Source: Bacillota bacterium (GTDB taxonomy: Bacteria; Bacillota; Clostridia; Peptostreptococcales; Anaerovoracaceae). From it: a DNA stretch of 64,000 bases. Positions 5,394-42,205 of the stretch are shown piece after piece. The position numbers and the translations under genes were made by a program. The notes beneath the pieces are model-generated. The model was not told where the DNA came from. It did not search any database and saw nothing but the letters and a program-made list of their open reading frames with translations. The number at the start of each line of letters is the position of its first letter. Position 1 is the first letter of the stretch. The DNA is taken from contig JAFUCA010000006.1 in the NCBI GenBank assembly GCA_017459895.1, positions 62,001 through 126,000 on the forward strand, given 5' to 3'.

Positions 5394-5757
5394 GATGTCG
5401 TGTCCCGGTACTTCTCAGTGCTATTACATTGTATTCTGTTTTGTTCTCTTATGTCAATGTCAAAGTAGATGGCACATCGTACCAGGAAAACAATTTGCAC
5501 TCGAAAAGGGCTTGACTCATTATCTGACTACCGGCGGTACGAAACGAAAGTGAAATTTAGCTGTTTTGATGATCCCATTCACTGGCGCTTGAAATCGAGG
5601 ATTTGTCCCAACGGATCCTAAGATATACGAGCTTTCGATCCGCACGCATCAAAAGTGCCTTTGTTGTCATTGCTATTGGACGGAGCCAGGCAAGTCATTA
5701 CCTCTCGCCGGCCAGCCTTTGCAAAAACGGGTAAGATGCGCAGAAGCCATAACGGAC
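5394..5757. other. Gene-poor gap, left part
   Basis: Upstream side of the Ig-like protein gene. I see no convincing coding frame. The stretch holds scattered TCGAAA/TTTCGA words (for example 5501, 5633) that resemble, but do not match well, the TTCGAGAT words of the array that follows, and one copy of the dispersed decamer as CAGCCTTTGC at 5713. No clear promoter could be assigned to the gene at 5393. Confidence 0.5.
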
Positions 5758-5758
5758 A

Positions 5759-5965
5759 TTCGAGATCCCGCGCATCCGGGAAGGCCTGAATCTCGAAAAG
5801 ATCCCCCTTACCACAGAATACCCGTCGACCTTCATGCCTCAGGCGGGCTCTCATTCGAGATTCCGAGCAATTCAATGCATCGAGATCTCTGATCGAAGGC
5901 ATTTGTCAGCCTTTGCGGAAGGAGCATTCGAGATCTCGCCTGCCTATGAAACCGCATAACTCGAA
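5759..5965. repeat. Phased inverted-word array, word TTCGAGAT
   Basis: Three dyads, each a TTCGAGAT followed by its reverse complement ATCTCGAA exactly 31 bases later (start to start): 5759/5790 (perfect), 5854/5885 (second arm 6 of 8 matches) and 5927/5958 (second arm 7 of 8). Steps between dyads (second arm of one to first arm of the next) are 64 and 42 bases. All steps are close to whole turns of B-DNA. The sequence between the arms is not conserved. A copy of the dispersed decamer lies at 5907 inside the array. Function unknown. Confidence 0.75.
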
Positions 5966-5993
5966 AGTCCCTTTTCCGCAACCGGCGCCGGCA

Positions 5994-6025
5994 GGAAAAC
6001 AGGAGACCCCTTGCGGAATCTCCTG
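5994..6025 (-). terminator. Rho-independent terminator of the LRR protein gene
   Basis: Read on the minus strand, CAGGAGA and TCTCCTG pair around a small inner stem, followed by TTTTCC. It lies 40 bases below the stop of the leucine-rich-repeat protein gene. Confidence 0.7.
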
Positions 6026-31419: not shown

Positions 31420-31628
31420 CAACCCGGCTCAACCCGGCTCAGCCCGGCTCAACTCTGCCAATCAAGCCAATTCGAGACATTCTGGCCGAGTTCACAGCCC
31501 TGTATATGCCTCTCGGCGATGAAAACTCTGCCACTCGTTCACTCTTCAGCCATTCCGGCAGAGTTTGTGCTGTTTCCCGTCGAATAACTCTGCCAATCAT
31601 CATCACTCAGGGGTGTTCTGGCAGAGTT
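31420..31628. repeat. Phased inverted-word array, word AACTCTGCCA, with CAACCCGGCT tandem
   Basis: Three dyads of AACTCTGCCA and its reverse complement TGGCAGAGTT: 31451/31483, 31524/31556 and 31586/31619 (start to start 32, 32, 33). Arms differ from the consensus by at most one base. Steps between dyads (second arm to next first arm) are 41 and 30. Immediately left of it CAACCCGGCT repeats three times with a 10-base period (31420, 31430, 31440; third copy has one change). The stretch lies between the glycerate kinase stop and the rpsF promoter. No coding frame was found. Confidence 0.8.
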
Positions 31629-34377: not shown

Positions 34378-34414
34378 TTGGCGGAGCTGCTGCAGTTCTT
34401 TTTTTATAAACGAA

Positions 34415-34558
34415 GAATCTGCAACAAAATCGGATTTTCGTTGCAGATTCCTCTTATCTCAGGATCGAAACTACAAATACACGAGGCCGAAGTCCTTCCT
34501 TCGATCATTCATGTCCCGCTTGTTGCAGATCTCCCAAATTTGAATTTGAATCTACAGC
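34415..34558. repeat. Inverted-word cluster, word GAATCTGCAAC
   Basis: GAATCTGCAAC at 34415 faces GTTGCAGATTC at 34440 (perfect, 14-base loop). GTTGCAGAT recurs at 34522 and GAATCTACAGC at 34548. Lies between convergent genes; the first dyad could form a weak hairpin, without a T run. Confidence 0.6.
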
Positions 34559-34604: not shown

Positions 34605-35303
34605 CTATTCTCCGTCGTCCCCGGCGCCCAGCGTATTGACCACGTCATTCAGTACGTCCATCAGTCCGCCGGTGATGGCGTTCAGGAAATCCTTGTTATC
34701 CTCGGTGATCTCATCCACGATCCACTGATCGCCGCTCTTCGTCAGGGTCAGGCTCGCCTTCCCTTCGTGATCCTTGTCTTTGATCCCGCCGAGCTCCTCC
34801 TGCAGGATCTCATAGGCCATCTTGCTGTAATCCTCCTCCGTCACGCTGTTCGCACTCCCGGAAAACTGCTCCAGCGCCCGGCTCATAAACTCCTGATAGA
34901 AGTTGTTGAACACTTTGGTCATGTCGTAGGTGGTGATGGTGACATCCACGCTCGCGGTCTTGCCGTCCTCGGCGATCTGCTCCCCCTCCACCTTGTAGTC
35001 AAAATCAAACCATTTGGCCAGAAGTCCGTCCAAAATCTCCTTCGGGATGTCCTCGTCCAGCGCCCCGTCCTCGTAGGTGGACAGGAAGTCATTGCTCTCC
35101 CCTGCATAGACCTGTTTCAGCGTCTCTTCATCCTGGTTCTTGAAGGCGTCCAGGAATGTGCTGACCGTCTCCCCCGGCGTCATGTCGCCGCTGACCTTCG
35201 TTTCGTTTCCGCCGCAGGCGGTGAAGGCGATCCCGAGGATCACGCACAGCGCCGCGCATATGCAAAGGCTGGTAATTCTGTGTTTCATGGCTTGGTTTTT
35301 CAT
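34605..35303 (-). CDS. Lipoprotein of unknown function
   Basis: Exported lipoprotein of about 232 residues. The signal peptide ends in a lipobox (ILGIAFTACGG), with Cys near residue 27 of this start. The mature part is acidic, starts with a helix of the form GDMTPGETVSTFLDAFKNQD, and resembles the NTF2-like fold of DUF4878/DUF5105-type lipoproteins. It shares a middle segment with the protein at 32914. Three Met codons are close; ATG 35303 has GGAAAG at a good distance. The dispersed decamer lies in the signal-peptide region (35262). Confidence 0.7.
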   Translation of the reverse strand: MKNQAMKHRITSLCICAALCVILGIAFTACGGNETKVSGDMTPGETVSTFLDAFKNQDEETLKQVYAGESNDFLSTYEDGALDEDIPKEILDGLLAKWFDFDYKVEGEQIAEDGKTASVDVTITTYDMTKVFNNFYQEFMSRALEQFSGSANSVTEEDYSKMAYEILQEELGGIKDKDHEGKASLTLTKSGDQWIVDEITEDNKDFLNAITGGLMDVLNDVVNTLGAGDDGE

Positions 35304-38348: not shown

Positions 38349-38399
38349 ATCCGTTTCCTCCTGTTGTATTCGGCAGTGTCAAACGCTCCATACGCAACC

Positions 38400-38700
38400 T
38401 GTCACTGCCCTTTTGTCACGCAGTGCAAGAAAAAGATCCGTTTCGTGACACTTTCACTGAACGTTTGTCACGCATGCACTCGTCTCTGCTGTCTTCGTGA
38501 CAAAACACTATGCAAAAGCTGTACAGCTCAGATGAAATTGTCATGTGAGATTGCTTATTCCCTCTTCGTGTGACAATTTCTTTCCCGATTTGTCACACGA
38601 TGGCCTTTTTTAGCCCGCTCCATGACAATGCCTTTTAGAAATTGTCACGGGACACACTGTATCCAGCTGGACTGTGACAATTCAGCTTTTCATCTGTCAC
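38400..38700. repeat. Phased inverted-word array, word TGTCAC (31/21 rhythm)
   Basis: TGTCAC (F) and GTGACA (R) alternate. Start positions: F 38414, R 38445, F 38466, R 38497, F 38539 (TGTCAT), R 38570, F 38591, R 38622 (ATGACA), F 38643, R 38674, F 38695. Steps: 31, 21, 31, 42, 31, 21, 31, 21, 31, 21. A further F at 38400 does not fit the rhythm. Flanking bases often extend the arms (GTGTGACAA facing TTGTCACAC at 38568–38598). The sequences between words are unrelated. The whole 446-base gap between neighbouring genes holds no coding frame. Confidence 0.88.
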
Positions 38701-38794
38701 CCGGCATTTTCCTGTGTCTCTTATTCTACCATGTCTTCGGCCAAATGGCGATTCGTTTCTCTTCCTGCAAAATCTGCAGCAGCACCGGTTCGGA

Positions 38795-39343
38795 TCAGAA
38801 CAGCACTGCCCCCGGATCCCGGTCAAAGTAGATGCTCTTGGAATTCACAGACAGCGGAATCCCATAGCTGACCTTCACCGACGGATCCAGAAACGCCATC
38901 CGCTGGGCGGCCTGTCCGGCGCTGAACATGACCCGGTTGTCGATCCGGTGATCCGCTGCAACGGACACCGCTGAGCCAACCGCGATTCCAAGATCCGTCA
39001 CAATCAGAGCGCATCGTCCGCCGGCCCGGACCATCTGCCCGCAGTTTTCAAACCCGCAGTACCCGCAGTGCTCCAGTCCGAAGGGCACGTTCTTCGCGCC
39101 GATGATCACCACCGCCTCGCTGGCATCCACGTTCCCCGCGTCCCGCTCGAAAAACTCCGCATCGGTCTCTCTGGCAATGTCCCGCATGTGGTCAGCCAAC
39201 TCCGCCTTGTCCTCCCCGGTCAGCACGTAGGCCAGGATGTTGTCCTTGCCGGAGGCTTTCGGCGCGGAGATCGCTGCCGCCGTCATTGCCCGCGCTGTCT
39301 CCAGCGCCGCCTGCGTAATCGCCTGTTCCCTCGTTTCGATCAT
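38795..39343 (-). CDS. DUF2148 ferredoxin-like domain protein
   Basis: Function unknown; family DUF2148, common in anaerobes. The 182-residue protein has a Cys cluster, CGYCGFENCGQMV followed by a further Cys at GGRCALIV, likely to bind an iron–sulphur cluster, and a C-terminal hydrophobic part with GSAVSVAADHRIDNRVMFSAG. The N-terminal ~30 residues are helical. ATG 39343 has GAGGAG upstream. A longer frame begins inside the repeat array and is rejected. It stands between the two most regular repeat arrays of the window; whether this matters is unknown. Confidence 0.78.
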   Translation of the reverse strand: MIETREQAITQAALETARAMTAAAISAPKASGKDNILAYVLTGEDKAELADHMRDIARETDAEFFERDAGNVDASEAVVIIGAKNVPFGLEHCGYCGFENCGQMVRAGGRCALIVTDLGIAVGSAVSVAADHRIDNRVMFSAGQAAQRMAFLDPSVKVSYGIPLSVNSKSIYFDRDPGAVLF

Positions 39344-39386
39344 ATGTAATCTCCTCTCTGGCGCAAAGATTCTGCCGCAAAAGTTA

Positions 39387-39609
39387 TTTGTGAGAGTTAC
39401 TCCTTCATTTTGATAAATTTCTCTCACAAATCAGCCCTTCCAGTGAGGGTTCTTTCGTGATTCTTTTGCTTTTCCCTCACAAATGCTCTCTGAATTGTGA
39501 GAGTTTATCCTTGTTTTACCCAAACTTCTCTCATAATCGAGTCTCTTCCGTGAGGTTTTCTTTACCTTTTTGTTCTTTTACTCTCACTGATCCTTGATTT
39601 CTGTGAGAG
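39387..39609. repeat. Phased inverted-word array, word GTGAGAG (31/22 rhythm)
   Basis: GTGAGAG-type (F) and CTCTCAC-type (R) words alternate: F 39390, R 39421, F 39443 (GTGAGGG), R 39474 (CCCTCAC), F 39497, R 39528 (CTCTCAT), F 39550 (GTGAGGT), R 39581, F 39603. Steps: 31, 22, 31, 23, 31, 22, 31, 22. The first dyad is perfect over ten bases (TTTGTGAGAG facing CTCTCACAAA). In the second, both arms changed together (GTGAGGG with CCCTCAC), which keeps the pairing. Inner spacers are 24 bases, pyrimidine-rich, and otherwise unrelated. It fills the gap upstream of the DUF2148 gene. Confidence 0.9.
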
Positions 39610-39657
39610 TTTTTCTTCATTTCATCGATTACCCATCATCAGGACAGTCGAGCTGAC

Positions 39658-40149
39658 TCAGAATGAGGTTTGTTCTCTTCGCACCTGCTCAAACAGCGCC
39701 TTCTGCCGCGCGTGGTGCTCCTCAAACTTCGCGCGCTTCTCCGCCTCCGTCCCGAACTTCATAAACGCGTGATAGGTGCCCTCTGTCCGCCGGGCTCTCT
39801 CCCACAGTTCTTCCAAAGGCTGGTCTTCCCCCGTGATGACCACTTCATGCTGCAGGATCAGCCCTCTGGAATCGTCATCGTAGAGAATCCCGTCCCCGCA
39901 GGCAACGACCAGGCCTCCTCCGGCCTCTTCGCAGATCCGACTGACCTCTTCAAATTCCGCGTTCCGATAGGCGTGCTCCCCGCCCATCATGCAAAGTCTG
40001 GCGATGCTCCTGCCGTCGGTTTCTTCAATGCGGGCATCCAGGTCGCAGACCGGCCAGCCTTTGGATGATGCGATGTCAGAGGCAACTTCTGCAATCGGTG
40101 CTCCGAAATAGCCGGTCACGAATATCAACTTCTGTTTGCTGTCTGTCAT
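39658..40149 (-). CDS. Shikimate kinase-like protein without a P-loop
   Basis: Relative of shikimate kinase (AroK) of 163 residues, probably not a kinase. It keeps the substrate region VCDLDARIEETDGRSIARL, the lid-like EHAYRNAEFEEVSRI and a strand LVVACGDGILYDDDSR that matches the family's GGG turn in part. But the position of the Walker A loop reads TGYFGAPIAEVASDIAS and lacks the GxGKS/T residues that bind ATP. Other core aro genes are not nearby. Start ATG 40149; read divergently from the plsC gene, with a TGGGG/CCCCA unit in between. It could be a pseudo-enzyme with a regulatory role, or a decaying duplicate. Confidence 0.68.
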   Translation of the reverse strand: MTDSKQKLIFVTGYFGAPIAEVASDIASSKGWPVCDLDARIEETDGRSIARLCMMGGEHAYRNAEFEEVSRICEEAGGGLVVACGDGILYDDDSRGLILQHEVVITGEDQPLEELWERARRTEGTYHAFMKFGTEAEKRAKFEEHHARQKALFEQVRREQTSF

Positions 40150-40220
40150 GGTGTGATTTCCTTTGTTTTTATGAATATCTTAACACACCCCGGCCAGGAA
40201 ATCTCGGCAAAATCGATCTA

Positions 40221-40314
40221 TGGGGAAGTATTTCATAGATCCATGGGGCTGCCTCCCCACAGGAAACGCTATACTACCCCACATGACGTCCCGGATTTAT
40301 GGTATACTTCCCCT
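40221..40314. repeat. Phased TGGGG/CCCCA double-dyad unit in divergent promoter region
   Basis: TGGGG at 40221 and 40244, CCCCA at 40255 and 40277 (steps 23, 11, 22), then CCCCT at 40310 (33 further). The unit has the same core and right flank as the array at 35381–35505. TATACT precedes the CCCC words at 40277 and 40310, and its inverse AGTAT follows the first TGGGG; TATACT could double as a -10 element for the plsC gene 20 bases downstream. Confidence 0.78.
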
Positions 40315-40330
40315 AGAGAGGTAAGCGATC

Positions 40331-41110
40331 ATGAAGATTTTTCCCAACATCCCGGGCTTTGCGAAGCTGGTGTACTGTCTGAAATATTTCAATCCCTATC
40401 GGAAGAAGATCGAGGCTGCAAAGGCTGCCGGCGACTTCGAAGAGGAGCGGGCGCAGATCCTGGCGGCCACCTCCAGCTGGGGGCCGATGATCATGGATAT
40501 GTTCGGCAGTGAGGTCCTTGTGGAGGGACTGGAGAACCTGCCGGAGAAAGGGCCGGTGGTCCTGGTGGGAAATCATCAGGGGTACGCGGACATCGCCGCG
40601 TATTTTGCGGCGTTTAAGAAATTCCAGTTTGCCTTCGTGGCCAAGCGGGAGCTGGCGCAGATCCCGCTTTATGGGAAATGGATGCCCCGGATCCGCAGCG
40701 TTTTCATCGAACGGGATGATCCCCGGGCCTCCCTGGAGGCGATCAAGGAAGGGGTCGCTCTGATCGAGCAGGGATTCTCTCTGGTCATTTTCCCGGAGGG
40801 GACGCGGTCGAAGGGGCCGGTTCCGGGACCGTTCATGAAGGGATCGCTGAAGCTTGCCACCAAGCCGGGGGTTCCCATCGTTCCCGTCTCCATGAACGGA
40901 ACCTATAAGATGTATGAGCAGATCGGCGTTATCCGTCCGGCGACCATCCGCATCATCGTTCACGAGCCGATTCCGACGGCGGGTCTGTCCCGCCAGGAGG
41001 AGAAGGCGCTCAACGAGCGGGTCGAACAGATCGTGAAGGACGGCGTGCGGCAGCTGGCCCTGCGGGACGGGGATATTGCAGAAGATATCACAGAGGACAG
41101 GACCGAATAG
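40331..41110 (+). CDS. plsC: 1-acyl-sn-glycerol-3-phosphate acyltransferase
   Basis: Adds the second acyl chain in phosphatidic acid synthesis, at the inner membrane face. The 259-residue protein has the acyltransferase motifs in order: VLVGNHQGYADIAAYF (the NHxxxxD box reads NHQGYAD), FAFVAKRELAQIPLYG, VFIERDDP, LVIFPEGTRSKG and KPGVPIVPVSMNG. Residues 1–60 form a helical N-terminus without a clear membrane segment, typical of this shorter clade. Start ATG 40331, after GAGAGG. Lone plus-strand gene among minus-strand neighbours. Confidence 0.9.
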   Translation: MKIFPNIPGFAKLVYCLKYFNPYRKKIEAAKAAGDFEEERAQILAATSSWGPMIMDMFGSEVLVEGLENLPEKGPVVLVGNHQGYADIAAYFAAFKKFQFAFVAKRELAQIPLYGKWMPRIRSVFIERDDPRASLEAIKEGVALIEQGFSLVIFPEGTRSKGPVPGPFMKGSLKLATKPGVPIVPVSMNGTYKMYEQIGVIRPATIRIIVHEPIPTAGLSRQEEKALNERVEQIVKDGVRQLALRDGDIAEDITEDRTE

Positions 41111-41122
41111 CCGCTGGCCGCA

Positions 41123-41992
41123 CTACAGAACCGGCAGCAGCGCCTCCCTGATCTTCGCGAAATCGATCACCAGCTCTCCCTTCGAGATCCGAACCGGCAC
41201 CTGCTCGTCAAAGGAATAGAATGCCGGCACCTGATTCTCCGGATCGGTGAAGTCATAGACGATCACACTTTGATGGGCCCCGTCCACGATCCAGTACTCC
41301 CGTACACCGGCATCCCGGTATTTTTTCAGTTTCAGAATGCAGTCCCGGCTGCTGGTGCTGGGGGACAGGACCTCCAGAACAAAGTCCGGCGCGCCCCAGA
41401 TCGCATGGTTCCTGTATTCCTGATGGCATATGACCAGCAGGTCCGGCTCTACCATGGTCCGCTCGTCCTTATCCAGCTGCACATCCAGCGGCAGATAGAC
41501 CCTGCAGTCCCCGCCGGATCTCTTCTGATAATCCAGGAAATAATAATAGATCTCGCCGACCAGCGCCTGATGGCGCATGTTCGGCGTTGTCATGTCGTAG
41601 ATCACACCGTCGATCAGCTCTCCCTTCCAGTCCTCCGGCATGGCGAAAAAATCATCCACCGTGAACTCTCCCTGCCTTTTTCCCCGGGGCAGATCGATCT
41701 CCTTCGCAGCCCCATAGGAGAAAGCGACCTCCCGGAACCGCGCCTCTTCTGACTTCGGCAGCTTGTAATAATAATACGGTTCGTTGGGCGTGCTGACCCG
41801 GACCGCCCGGGAATCCGGCTTCCAGTCCCGCAGGACATTTTCCAGTTTTACCATGGTCTGTATATGCGGCTGTCTGGTGATCCCGCTGAAGACCTTCTGC
41901 ACGGTGCTGAGGGGCACCTCCGCCAGCTCCGCGATCTGCCGGTTCGAGTATCCCAGTTCCTTCTTTCTTTCTCTCATCTCCTGAATGTTCAT
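41123..41992 (-). CDS. Uma2-family (DUF820) nuclease-like protein with HTH domain
   Basis: Two-domain protein of 289 residues. Residues of about 1–60 are a Cro/C1-type helix-turn-helix (MNIQEMRERKKELGYSNRQI, AEVPLSTVQKVFSGITRQP). After a linker, residues of about 105–289 are a Uma2 domain of the restriction-endonuclease-like fold: DFFAMPEDWKGELIDGVIYD, VEPDLLVICHQEY, PDFVLEVLSPSTSSRDCILK and YRDAGVREYWIVDG, holding the E/D-x-K type residues. The role of Uma2 proteins is unknown; they often occur in several copies. I chose ATG 41992 (GGAGG eight bases upstream); an ATG 15 bases earlier is also possible. Confidence 0.82.
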   Translation of the reverse strand: MNIQEMRERKKELGYSNRQIAELAEVPLSTVQKVFSGITRQPHIQTMVKLENVLRDWKPDSRAVRVSTPNEPYYYYKLPKSEEARFREVAFSYGAAKEIDLPRGKRQGEFTVDDFFAMPEDWKGELIDGVIYDMTTPNMRHQALVGEIYYYFLDYQKRSGGDCRVYLPLDVQLDKDERTMVEPDLLVICHQEYRNHAIWGAPDFVLEVLSPSTSSRDCILKLKKYRDAGVREYWIVDGAHQSVIVYDFTDPENQVPAFYSFDEQVPVRISKGELVIDFAKIREALLPVL

Positions 41993-42086
41993 CTCCAATA
42001 CCTCCATTTATTTCCTTTTTGGTGTTATGATTATATAACATACAAAACCGAAATGCAATATTTTTCCATTATATTCCCGCAAAAAA

Positions 42087-42205
42087 GACCGCCGCTTCGA
42101 CATCTCACTAATGCCTTCCGCGGCAGTCCTGTTCGTTCTGCCCATGGTCTCCCGAACCCCGGTTTCTCAAAACTCATGGTTTCCCGGATCCCCGGTTTCT
42201 CAGAA
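42087..42205. repeat. Dyad GACCGCCGC and 32-bp tandem repeat
   Basis: GACCGCCGC at 42087 faces GCGGCAGTC at 42120 (one mismatch, 24-base spacer, 33 start to start). Next to it a unit beginning CATGGT(C/T)TCCCG and ending CCCCGGTTTCTCA occurs twice, at 42143 and 42175 (period 32). Together they fill the gap between the HTH–Uma2 gene and trpS, reaching the trpS stop. Confidence 0.7.

Follow-up and report, generated by a model that had tools for sequence, protein, structure and literature searches.

Helically phased arrays of inverted words and a PD-(D/E)XK nuclease-like protein family in the genome of a Clostridia bacterium

The question raised by this locus is what reads, or has made, a set of intergenic arrays in which a short word is followed about three helical turns later by its own reverse complement. 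The arrays lie in a stretch of 64,000 nucleotides (hereafter the window) from a Bacillota bacterium of the Anaerovoracaceae (assembly GCA_017459895.1, contig JAFUCA010000006.1, positions 62,001 to 126,000), for which a reading of the letters without database searches (hereafter the sequence-only reading) had described dyads of one geometry with a word private to each gap. We found that the arrays are phased by whole helical turns, belong to word families, keep words and spacing under constraint, were gained by lineage, and stand beside genes of a multi-copy protein family whose members co-vary with the words. We think it rather probable that the arrays are binding platforms of this diversified, PD-(D/E)XK nuclease-like family, each member with its own word of about 7–10 bp. 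The combination of protein and repeats appears not to have been described before, and no published account of such a system was found in the literature searched, which excluded bioRxiv and most subscription papers.

The window carries the following features (window coordinates, no strand assigned; steps are dyad-to-dyad distances in bp; paralogs, the members of the protein family in this genome, are named by locus):

5758..5967: TTCGAGAT array of three dyads, steps 95 and 73; locus L007 has a homologous copy
31451..31628: AACTCTGCCA array of three dyads, steps 73 and 62
about 34390..34557: degenerate TTGCAGAT array; the word is that beside paralog L187
35381..35505: two TGGGG quads; the word family is that of paralog L194
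38413..38681: TTGTCACG array of five dyads, steps 52, 73, 52, 52; half-sites also at 38400 and 38695
39387..39609: GTGAGAG array of four dyads and a half-site, steps 53–54
40221..40281: one TGGGG quad, in a divergent gap
42087..42128: single GACCGCCGC dyad (42087/42120, 33 bp, one mismatch), its membership of the class unsupported

The TGTCAC dyads stand at 38414/38445, 38466/38497, 38539/38570, 38591/38622 and 38643/38674, all 31 bp apart with at most one mismatch per dyad. Those of GTGAGAG stand at 39390/39421, 39443/39474, 39497/39528 and 39550/39581 (31 bp, at most two mismatches, one mismatch case being the paired change GTGAGGG/CCCTCAC) and those of TTCGAGAT at 5759/5790, 5854/5885 and 5927/5958 (31 bp, at most two mismatches), and the AACTCTGCCA words at 31451, 31524 and 31586 have their partners 32, 32 and 33 bp further on. 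The proposed partner distance of 31–33 bp, start to start, was confirmed at these coordinates, and 15 of the 16 dyads counted in the sequence-only reading sit in arrays as described; the sixteenth, the lone GACCGCCGC dyad, exists and is otherwise unsupported. The TTGCAGAT array and the TGGGG quads at two places, in which two words are followed by two inverted words about 22, 11 and 23 bp apart, are additional to that count. Over the whole 64 kb the number of dyads by distance shows no excess or peak at 31–33 bp, so the case rests on the clustering of the same word in register.

This clustering was scored in a sample of 1.03 of the 2.50 Mb of the same genome (52 stretches plus the window) using our own gene calls; the small contigs L017–L022, either repeats of larger contigs or of very short length, were omitted, and L136, which partly repeats L102, was kept. 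Intergenic gaps of at least 100 bp (n = 292) were compared with 876 shuffled gaps. Three or more dyads of one word were found in 39/292 gaps versus 0/876 shuffled gaps, and exactly two dyads in 29/292 versus 19/876, both counted before rows were removed by hand. Hits judged GC-rich or coding-like were then dropped (7/47 arrays, 6/68 gaps), and the same seven words, plus one hit in L203, were omitted from the step-period and AT analyses below. The arrays lie mostly behind the 3' ends of genes, and divergent gaps are poor in them (3/58 versus 59/234 other gaps; Fisher p = 5e-4; 62 of the 68 gaps kept).

The words are not private to single gaps, as had been supposed, and form genome-wide families. 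With at most one mismatch, the genome has 90 copies of TTGTCAC-N25-GTGACAA, about ten of them on the small duplicate contigs C12 and C25, and 0 of a reversed control; each of 48 congeners has at most one. In the sample 13 TTGTCAC arrays were accepted, with one weak cluster left uncounted; the array of the window and five others have the steps 52, 73, 52, 52, and two more have the mirror image. The other words were AACTCTGCCA, TTCGAGAT, ATTCCTTA, TTTCYGCGAA, CCTACCAT, TTGCAGAT, TTTTGTAC, TACTGTAA, the TGGGG quads and GTGAGAG, the last with one array only in the sample. At least ten words have one geometry in common, each family has its own step pattern (mostly 52, 73, 52, 52 for TTGTCAC), and most families have a partner protein of the kind described below. 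The picture of one geometry with many words held, as did the expectation that arrays far exceed shuffled gaps, recur elsewhere in the genome with the same and other words, and occur in relatives with other words; the spacers are not strictly unrelated, since some copies share them.

Measured centre to centre, the two words of a dyad are 31–33 bp apart for most words and about 26–29 bp for two of them. The dyads, about 31 bp wide with arms of 7–10 bp, are chained at steps of 4–14 turns. In 41 arrays of the own genome (116 steps) the steps are multiples of 10.45 bp with a coherence of 0.906, the largest value among 500 random sets being 0.27. Steps of related arrays are not independent, and relatives with many different words are therefore the better test of phasing; the 63 steps of 25 arrays from other genomes gave a best period of 10.3 bp with a coherence of 0.826 (largest random value 0.44). 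In the same analysis several of the nine hits in the gene-bearing congeners G013, G004 and G003 look like chance hits in coding sequence, and some of those stretches were picked because they carry the gene. Whole-turn phasing, noticed in the window from step lengths near multiples of 10.5 bp, held in the own genome and in relatives.

Along 157 dyads of the own genome the AT content peaks at position 0 (0.86), at ±10 (about 0.7) and at ±19 (0.88), the outer peaks falling partly inside the words themselves, and dips at ±5 (0.33–0.39); 88 dyads of relatives have the same peak positions with shallower dips. Central A-tracts occur on both strands (29 AAAA and 33 TTTT in the 157 dyads; 39% versus 15% at random gap positions). 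This AT periodicity, together with A-tracts on either strand, favours bent duplex DNA over RNA.

When 876 predicted proteins were clustered, a family adjoining the arrays stood out, to which Pfam and NCBIfam scans gave no name. A profile search of the own genome found it at 15 places, or 14 paralogs after removal of a duplicate contig. Arrays were recognised by the detector within 1.5-kb flanks at nine paralogs and by eye at two more:

L181: AACTCTGCCA, on both sides (detector)
L183: TTGTCACG (detector)
L186: ATTCCTTA (detector)
L187: TTGCAGAT (detector)
L188 and L193: TTTCYGCGAA (detector)
L189: CCTACCA (detector)
L190: TTCGAGAT (detector)
L194: CATGGGG (detector)
L191: TTTTGTAC (flanks inspected by eye)
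L192: TACTGTAA (flanks inspected by eye)

In total 11/14 paralogs adjoin arrays of ten different words. For full-length paralogs (11/13), set against a background of 124/876 genes, the binomial probability is 2.7e-8, a figure to be taken as a guide given that the compared windows are not identical and that two of the 11 arrays were found by eye. Ten different words among eleven pairs exceed random draws (P = 0.002, with word abundances entered by hand).

The 13 aligned paralogs share invariant R173, S174, E177, D207, E221, G224 and Y231 (triad numbered as in L181), and E177, D207 and E221, invariant in 13/13, form the acid triad of PD-(D/E)XK enzymes, from which the protein is predicted to be nuclease-like. 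No Pfam family passed its cut-off, either for the 13 members of alignment A2 or for the tabled members of alignment A3, and a sequence search of the PDB returned nothing convincing. Homologous C-terminal domains occur on plasmids and viral contigs, mostly within ATPases or helicases; the fold match comes from one such viral relative and not from an array-side protein, the modelled domain at locus L246 (pLDDT 70, two sequences) having Bax1 as its best Foldseek match in the PDB (E = 9.7e-4).

The protein was found in 45/48 congeners, in 79/297 genomes sampled from the order and in 43/391 from the class, the last two tallies including the own genome and some congeners. The flanks of 49 homologues in other genomes held arrays of at least three dyads at 25 loci, mostly with different words, compared with 0/147 shuffles. 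Control loci had arrays in 0/25 cases, or in 2/27 when L114 and L159 are included; these two, both in gene-bearing genomes, had been left out as already known array loci. By eye, the array lies 5' of the protein gene in 19 of the 25 array-bearing loci. In a sample of the class, arrays were found at 14/29 homologue loci (shuffles 5/87).

Words read beside the gene recur through the respective genomes, in counts that include the gene-side array. TGTTGGC, the gene-side word of G238 and G279, forms 72 dyads in G238, 20 in G279 and 21 in G268, a third genus, and none in G031 and G152 (controls for G238, G279, G268, G031 and G152: 0, 1, 0, 0 and 0). ACTATGC forms 21 dyads in G047 (control 0) and 0–2 in four others, and AGTCTCCAA, with two mismatches allowed, 33 in G031 (control 0) and 0–1 in four others. 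Protein similarity also predicts word similarity (Mantel r = 0.237, 0/5000 permutations, 33 of 36 pairs), with the words assigned by eye and L194, L204 and L222 omitted for a wrong or missing stored reading frame; the effect is modest, since closely related paralogs often differ in their words. That each protein would read its own word is strongly supported by these sequence comparisons. Three congeners lacking a match to the protein (G019, G024, G029) had 0 arrays in 160.6 kb, in which the rate of the own genome would give about 6; this zero says little, because 263 kb from nine further genomes, of which most carry the gene, likewise had 0 arrays of at least three dyads.

At single loci the words and their spacing are constrained. 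In four comparisons of homologous copies the arms are 96–100% identical and the other positions 60–80%; over 261 bp, window positions 5736–5996 and L007 differ by 43 substitutions, all outside the 48 arm positions, and by no indel. Such constraint speaks for a lasting function of the arrays. Across conserved gene pairs, the gap at 39344–39657 (314 bp here) is 21, 12 and 0 bp long in three relatives, the gap at 38349–38794 (446 bp here) is 97 bp in another, and a 642-bp gap with TGTCCCG dyads in G011 corresponds to 181 bp here, with a TGGGG quad of other layout. Array-bearing gaps thus face short gaps in relatives, and the arrays were gained by lineage. An orthologous gap that keeps the geometry with a changed word, as the sequence-only reading had envisaged, did not appear; the array of one species mostly faces a short gap without an array. 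Of the marks of a MITE or insertion sequence, terminal inverted repeats and a target-site duplication, some TTGTCAC elements show the end motif GGYAGYGTCA..TGACGCTACC, and no clear duplication was seen. The outer arms of the ATTCCTTA arrays (L003, L006, L102, L110, L144, L147, L149) often extend into ACCGG..CCGGT ends, and in some copies complementary letters lie just outside the ends, perhaps the trace of an insertion mechanism.

In the mechanism that we propose, the protein would be symmetric, probably a dimer, and would grip two inverted words separated by about three turns, the DNA being bent at the AT-rich centre of the dyad, and the chaining of dyads at whole helical turns would make all of them face the same way. 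A gene would usually have an array alongside, and more arrays of the same word would be placed in gaps throughout the genome, mostly behind 3' ends; words and spacing would stay under selection while the spacers drift. The nuclease activity may be tied to the spread of arrays, the part ascribed to RAYT transposases in the case of repetitive extragenic palindromes (REPs). The suggestion that a protein sits on one helix face and either reads the word or has made its copies is supported as an interpretation. To a bolder version, that the restriction-like nuclease writes its own arrays, we give somewhat less than even weight: a paralog would cut or copy at its word and plant phased arrays without a classical transposase, its specificity would drift, and about a dozen protein–word lineages would run in parallel per genome in a class-wide system.

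Several points weigh against binding platforms of a nuclease-like family. Direct binding, the dimer and the bending are what we infer from sequence patterns, and a cutting activity that would drive the spread of arrays as non-autonomous elements is suggested by analogy with RAYT/REP. The catalytic lysine is absent from its usual place, two residues after the second acid, and no clear target-site duplication was seen at TTGTCAC elements. Pairing is incomplete: no array was recognised in the flanks of 3/14 paralogs (L184, for which the closest CCTACCA array is about 1.6 kb off, L185 and the partial L195), L188 and L193 have the same word, and no partner protein was found for the GTGAGAG array. 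Elsewhere, 24/49 and 15/29 homologue loci had no array of at least three dyads within 1.5 kb, the 263 kb mentioned above had none, and the class-level shuffles were positive at the rate given above; two class-level arrays, one with step 75 and one with steps 48 and 61, fit whole turns poorly. In diverged copies the words are conserved, which agrees no less with a host function than with a selfish one.

The alternative that survives best, which we regard as unlikely and still worth weighing, is that the proteins are architectural or regulatory DNA binders and the arrays operators or topological insulators behind genes, with the nuclease fold inactive or secondary and the arrays spread otherwise and kept by selection. 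It agrees with the conservation of words and spacing at single loci with diverged spacers, with the avoidance of divergent gaps, with the AT pattern of bent DNA, with the frequent position of the array 5' of the protein's own gene and with the missing lysine. However, an acid triad invariant in all aligned paralogs would be unusual for a dead nuclease, and the arrays were gained by lineage as insertions.

A defence system, in which the nuclease attacks foreign DNA and the chromosomal arrays hold, gate or mark it as self, appears improbable. The nuclease domain matches the PADLOC candidate defence families PDC-S68 and PDC-S69 (PDC-S68 models in 10/10 members of A3, best 1e-34; the HEAT-PDDEXK model in seven), but the helicase/ATPase body of PDC-S68 is missing, member 1 matching only the end (1089–1218) of the 1221-position PDC-S68 profile, many paralogs with dispersed arrays would be an unusual layout for defence, and phage and plasmid records contain few relatives (3 and 8 records), of which none spans 80% of the query. 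That the arrays act as RNA, in hairpin chains for termination or mRNA stability, is hardly credible: the arms are complementary with one paired change and the arrays mostly follow 3' ends, but the steps are whole turns, central A-tracts are equal on both strands, the loop length is fixed, and the window has no Rfam match at the gathering threshold.

Among known systems, RAYT-REP (with REPIN and BIME) is the closest in kind. Enzyme and repeat are adjacent and co-evolve there and repeat number tracks the enzyme (PMC2817692, PMC3116915), with one enzyme per repeat word (PMC2817692). In the present system, too, repeats adjoin the enzyme gene and are dispersed between genes, enzyme and word co-vary, and repeat abundance appears to follow the presence of the enzyme. 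RAYTs are related to IS200/IS605 (Y1) transposases, whereas the present protein is PD-(D/E)XK-like, and Pfam found no Y1/HUH transposase domain in the members of A2 or the tabled members of A3. A GI REPIN consists of two 16-mers with first residues 71 bp apart, in contrast to words of 7–10 bp about 31 bp apart chained at whole turns; the units here are chained dyads and not the single hairpin of paired inverted REPs. The two differ in the superfamily of the enzyme, in word length, in the repeat unit and in the helical lattice, so the system is not a member of RAYT-REP. The contrast with REPs drawn in the sequence-only reading is weaker than stated, REP families also having one word per enzyme (PMC2817692). 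A RAYT as the main spreading enzyme was rejected, the genome having one such gene with its own inverted repeat. This lone RAYT-like Y1 gene (L161, about 1350–2100) is flanked by the inverted repeat GACGGAGAACCGTCCCCTGTC, which is unrelated to the array words.

The likeness to PDC-S68, PDC-S69 and plasmid or viral helicases lies in the homologous C-terminal nuclease domain. PDC-S68 models exceed 1200 positions, and in the viral relatives the domain is fused to a helicase, giving about 1200 aa, whereas the present proteins are stand-alone, of about 260–340 aa by gene call, and have arrays; they do not have the long body that precedes the C-terminal nuclease in PDC-S68. Bax1 endonuclease and the endonuclease domain of the R2 retrotransposon are among the best fold matches of the modelled domain of the viral relative, and we know of no link of either to repeat arrays. 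CRISPR arrays do not fit short inverted words in fixed step patterns (no search for cas genes was made), and an intrinsic terminator, with a strand-specific hairpin and T run, does not fit central A/T tracts that are about equal on both strands (by tract count, with no terminator scan).

In plasmid iterons and partition sites, too, inverted words recur at regular spacing close to the gene of a protein that probably binds them, as in the partition site sopC of the F plasmid. Those are near-identical tandem units at one place, in contrast to the dispersed chromosomal arrays with diverged spacers and many words described here. A search of public genomes for TTGTCACG-N23-CGTGACAA returned 35 stretches, and only in Marinomonas L046 was there more than one dyad place; the 73-bp tandem repeats with TTGTCACG dyads in Marinomonas L046 (560–1600) and L066 (2006–3070) do not belong to the array class. 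The repeats of L046 adjoin plasmid-type Rep and ParA genes and look like iterons or a partition site.

Other repeats were noticed as well. The 11-mer GCAAAGGCTGG, mostly preceded by T, has 278 exact copies in 1.03 Mb (reversed control 0), also within genes, for example near window position 35265; it is found in the samples of G011, G001 and G010, with 0 or 1 copy in the other congener samples counted, and is reminiscent of a DNA uptake signal or a Chi-like one. Between genes there is also a separate repeat, about 320 bp long, mostly 86–92% identical and with a GGATTTGTCCCA motif, whose copies include L134 8026–8383, L108 15668–16026, L104 2892–3216, L138 15928–16251 and L003 17439–17759; a diverged copy of it lies next to paralog L185. 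Three tandem hairpins AAAAAGGGACTA..TAGTCCCTTTTT behind a gene of a rumen Clostridia bin (L039 4883–5090) are terminator-like.

Gut Clostridia probably carry proteins of this type commonly and in several copies. With the arrays, a multi-copy family left unnamed by Pfam and NCBIfam scans gains a partner and hence a testable function. The pairing suggests that the arrangement of one enzyme, one repeat word and many scattered copies came about with an enzyme that is not related to HUH transposases. Dozens of natural protein–word pairs may serve to learn how a nuclease-like fold shifts its DNA specificity, and the arrays are a clear case in which whole-turn phasing of DNA is kept while the intervening sequence drifts.

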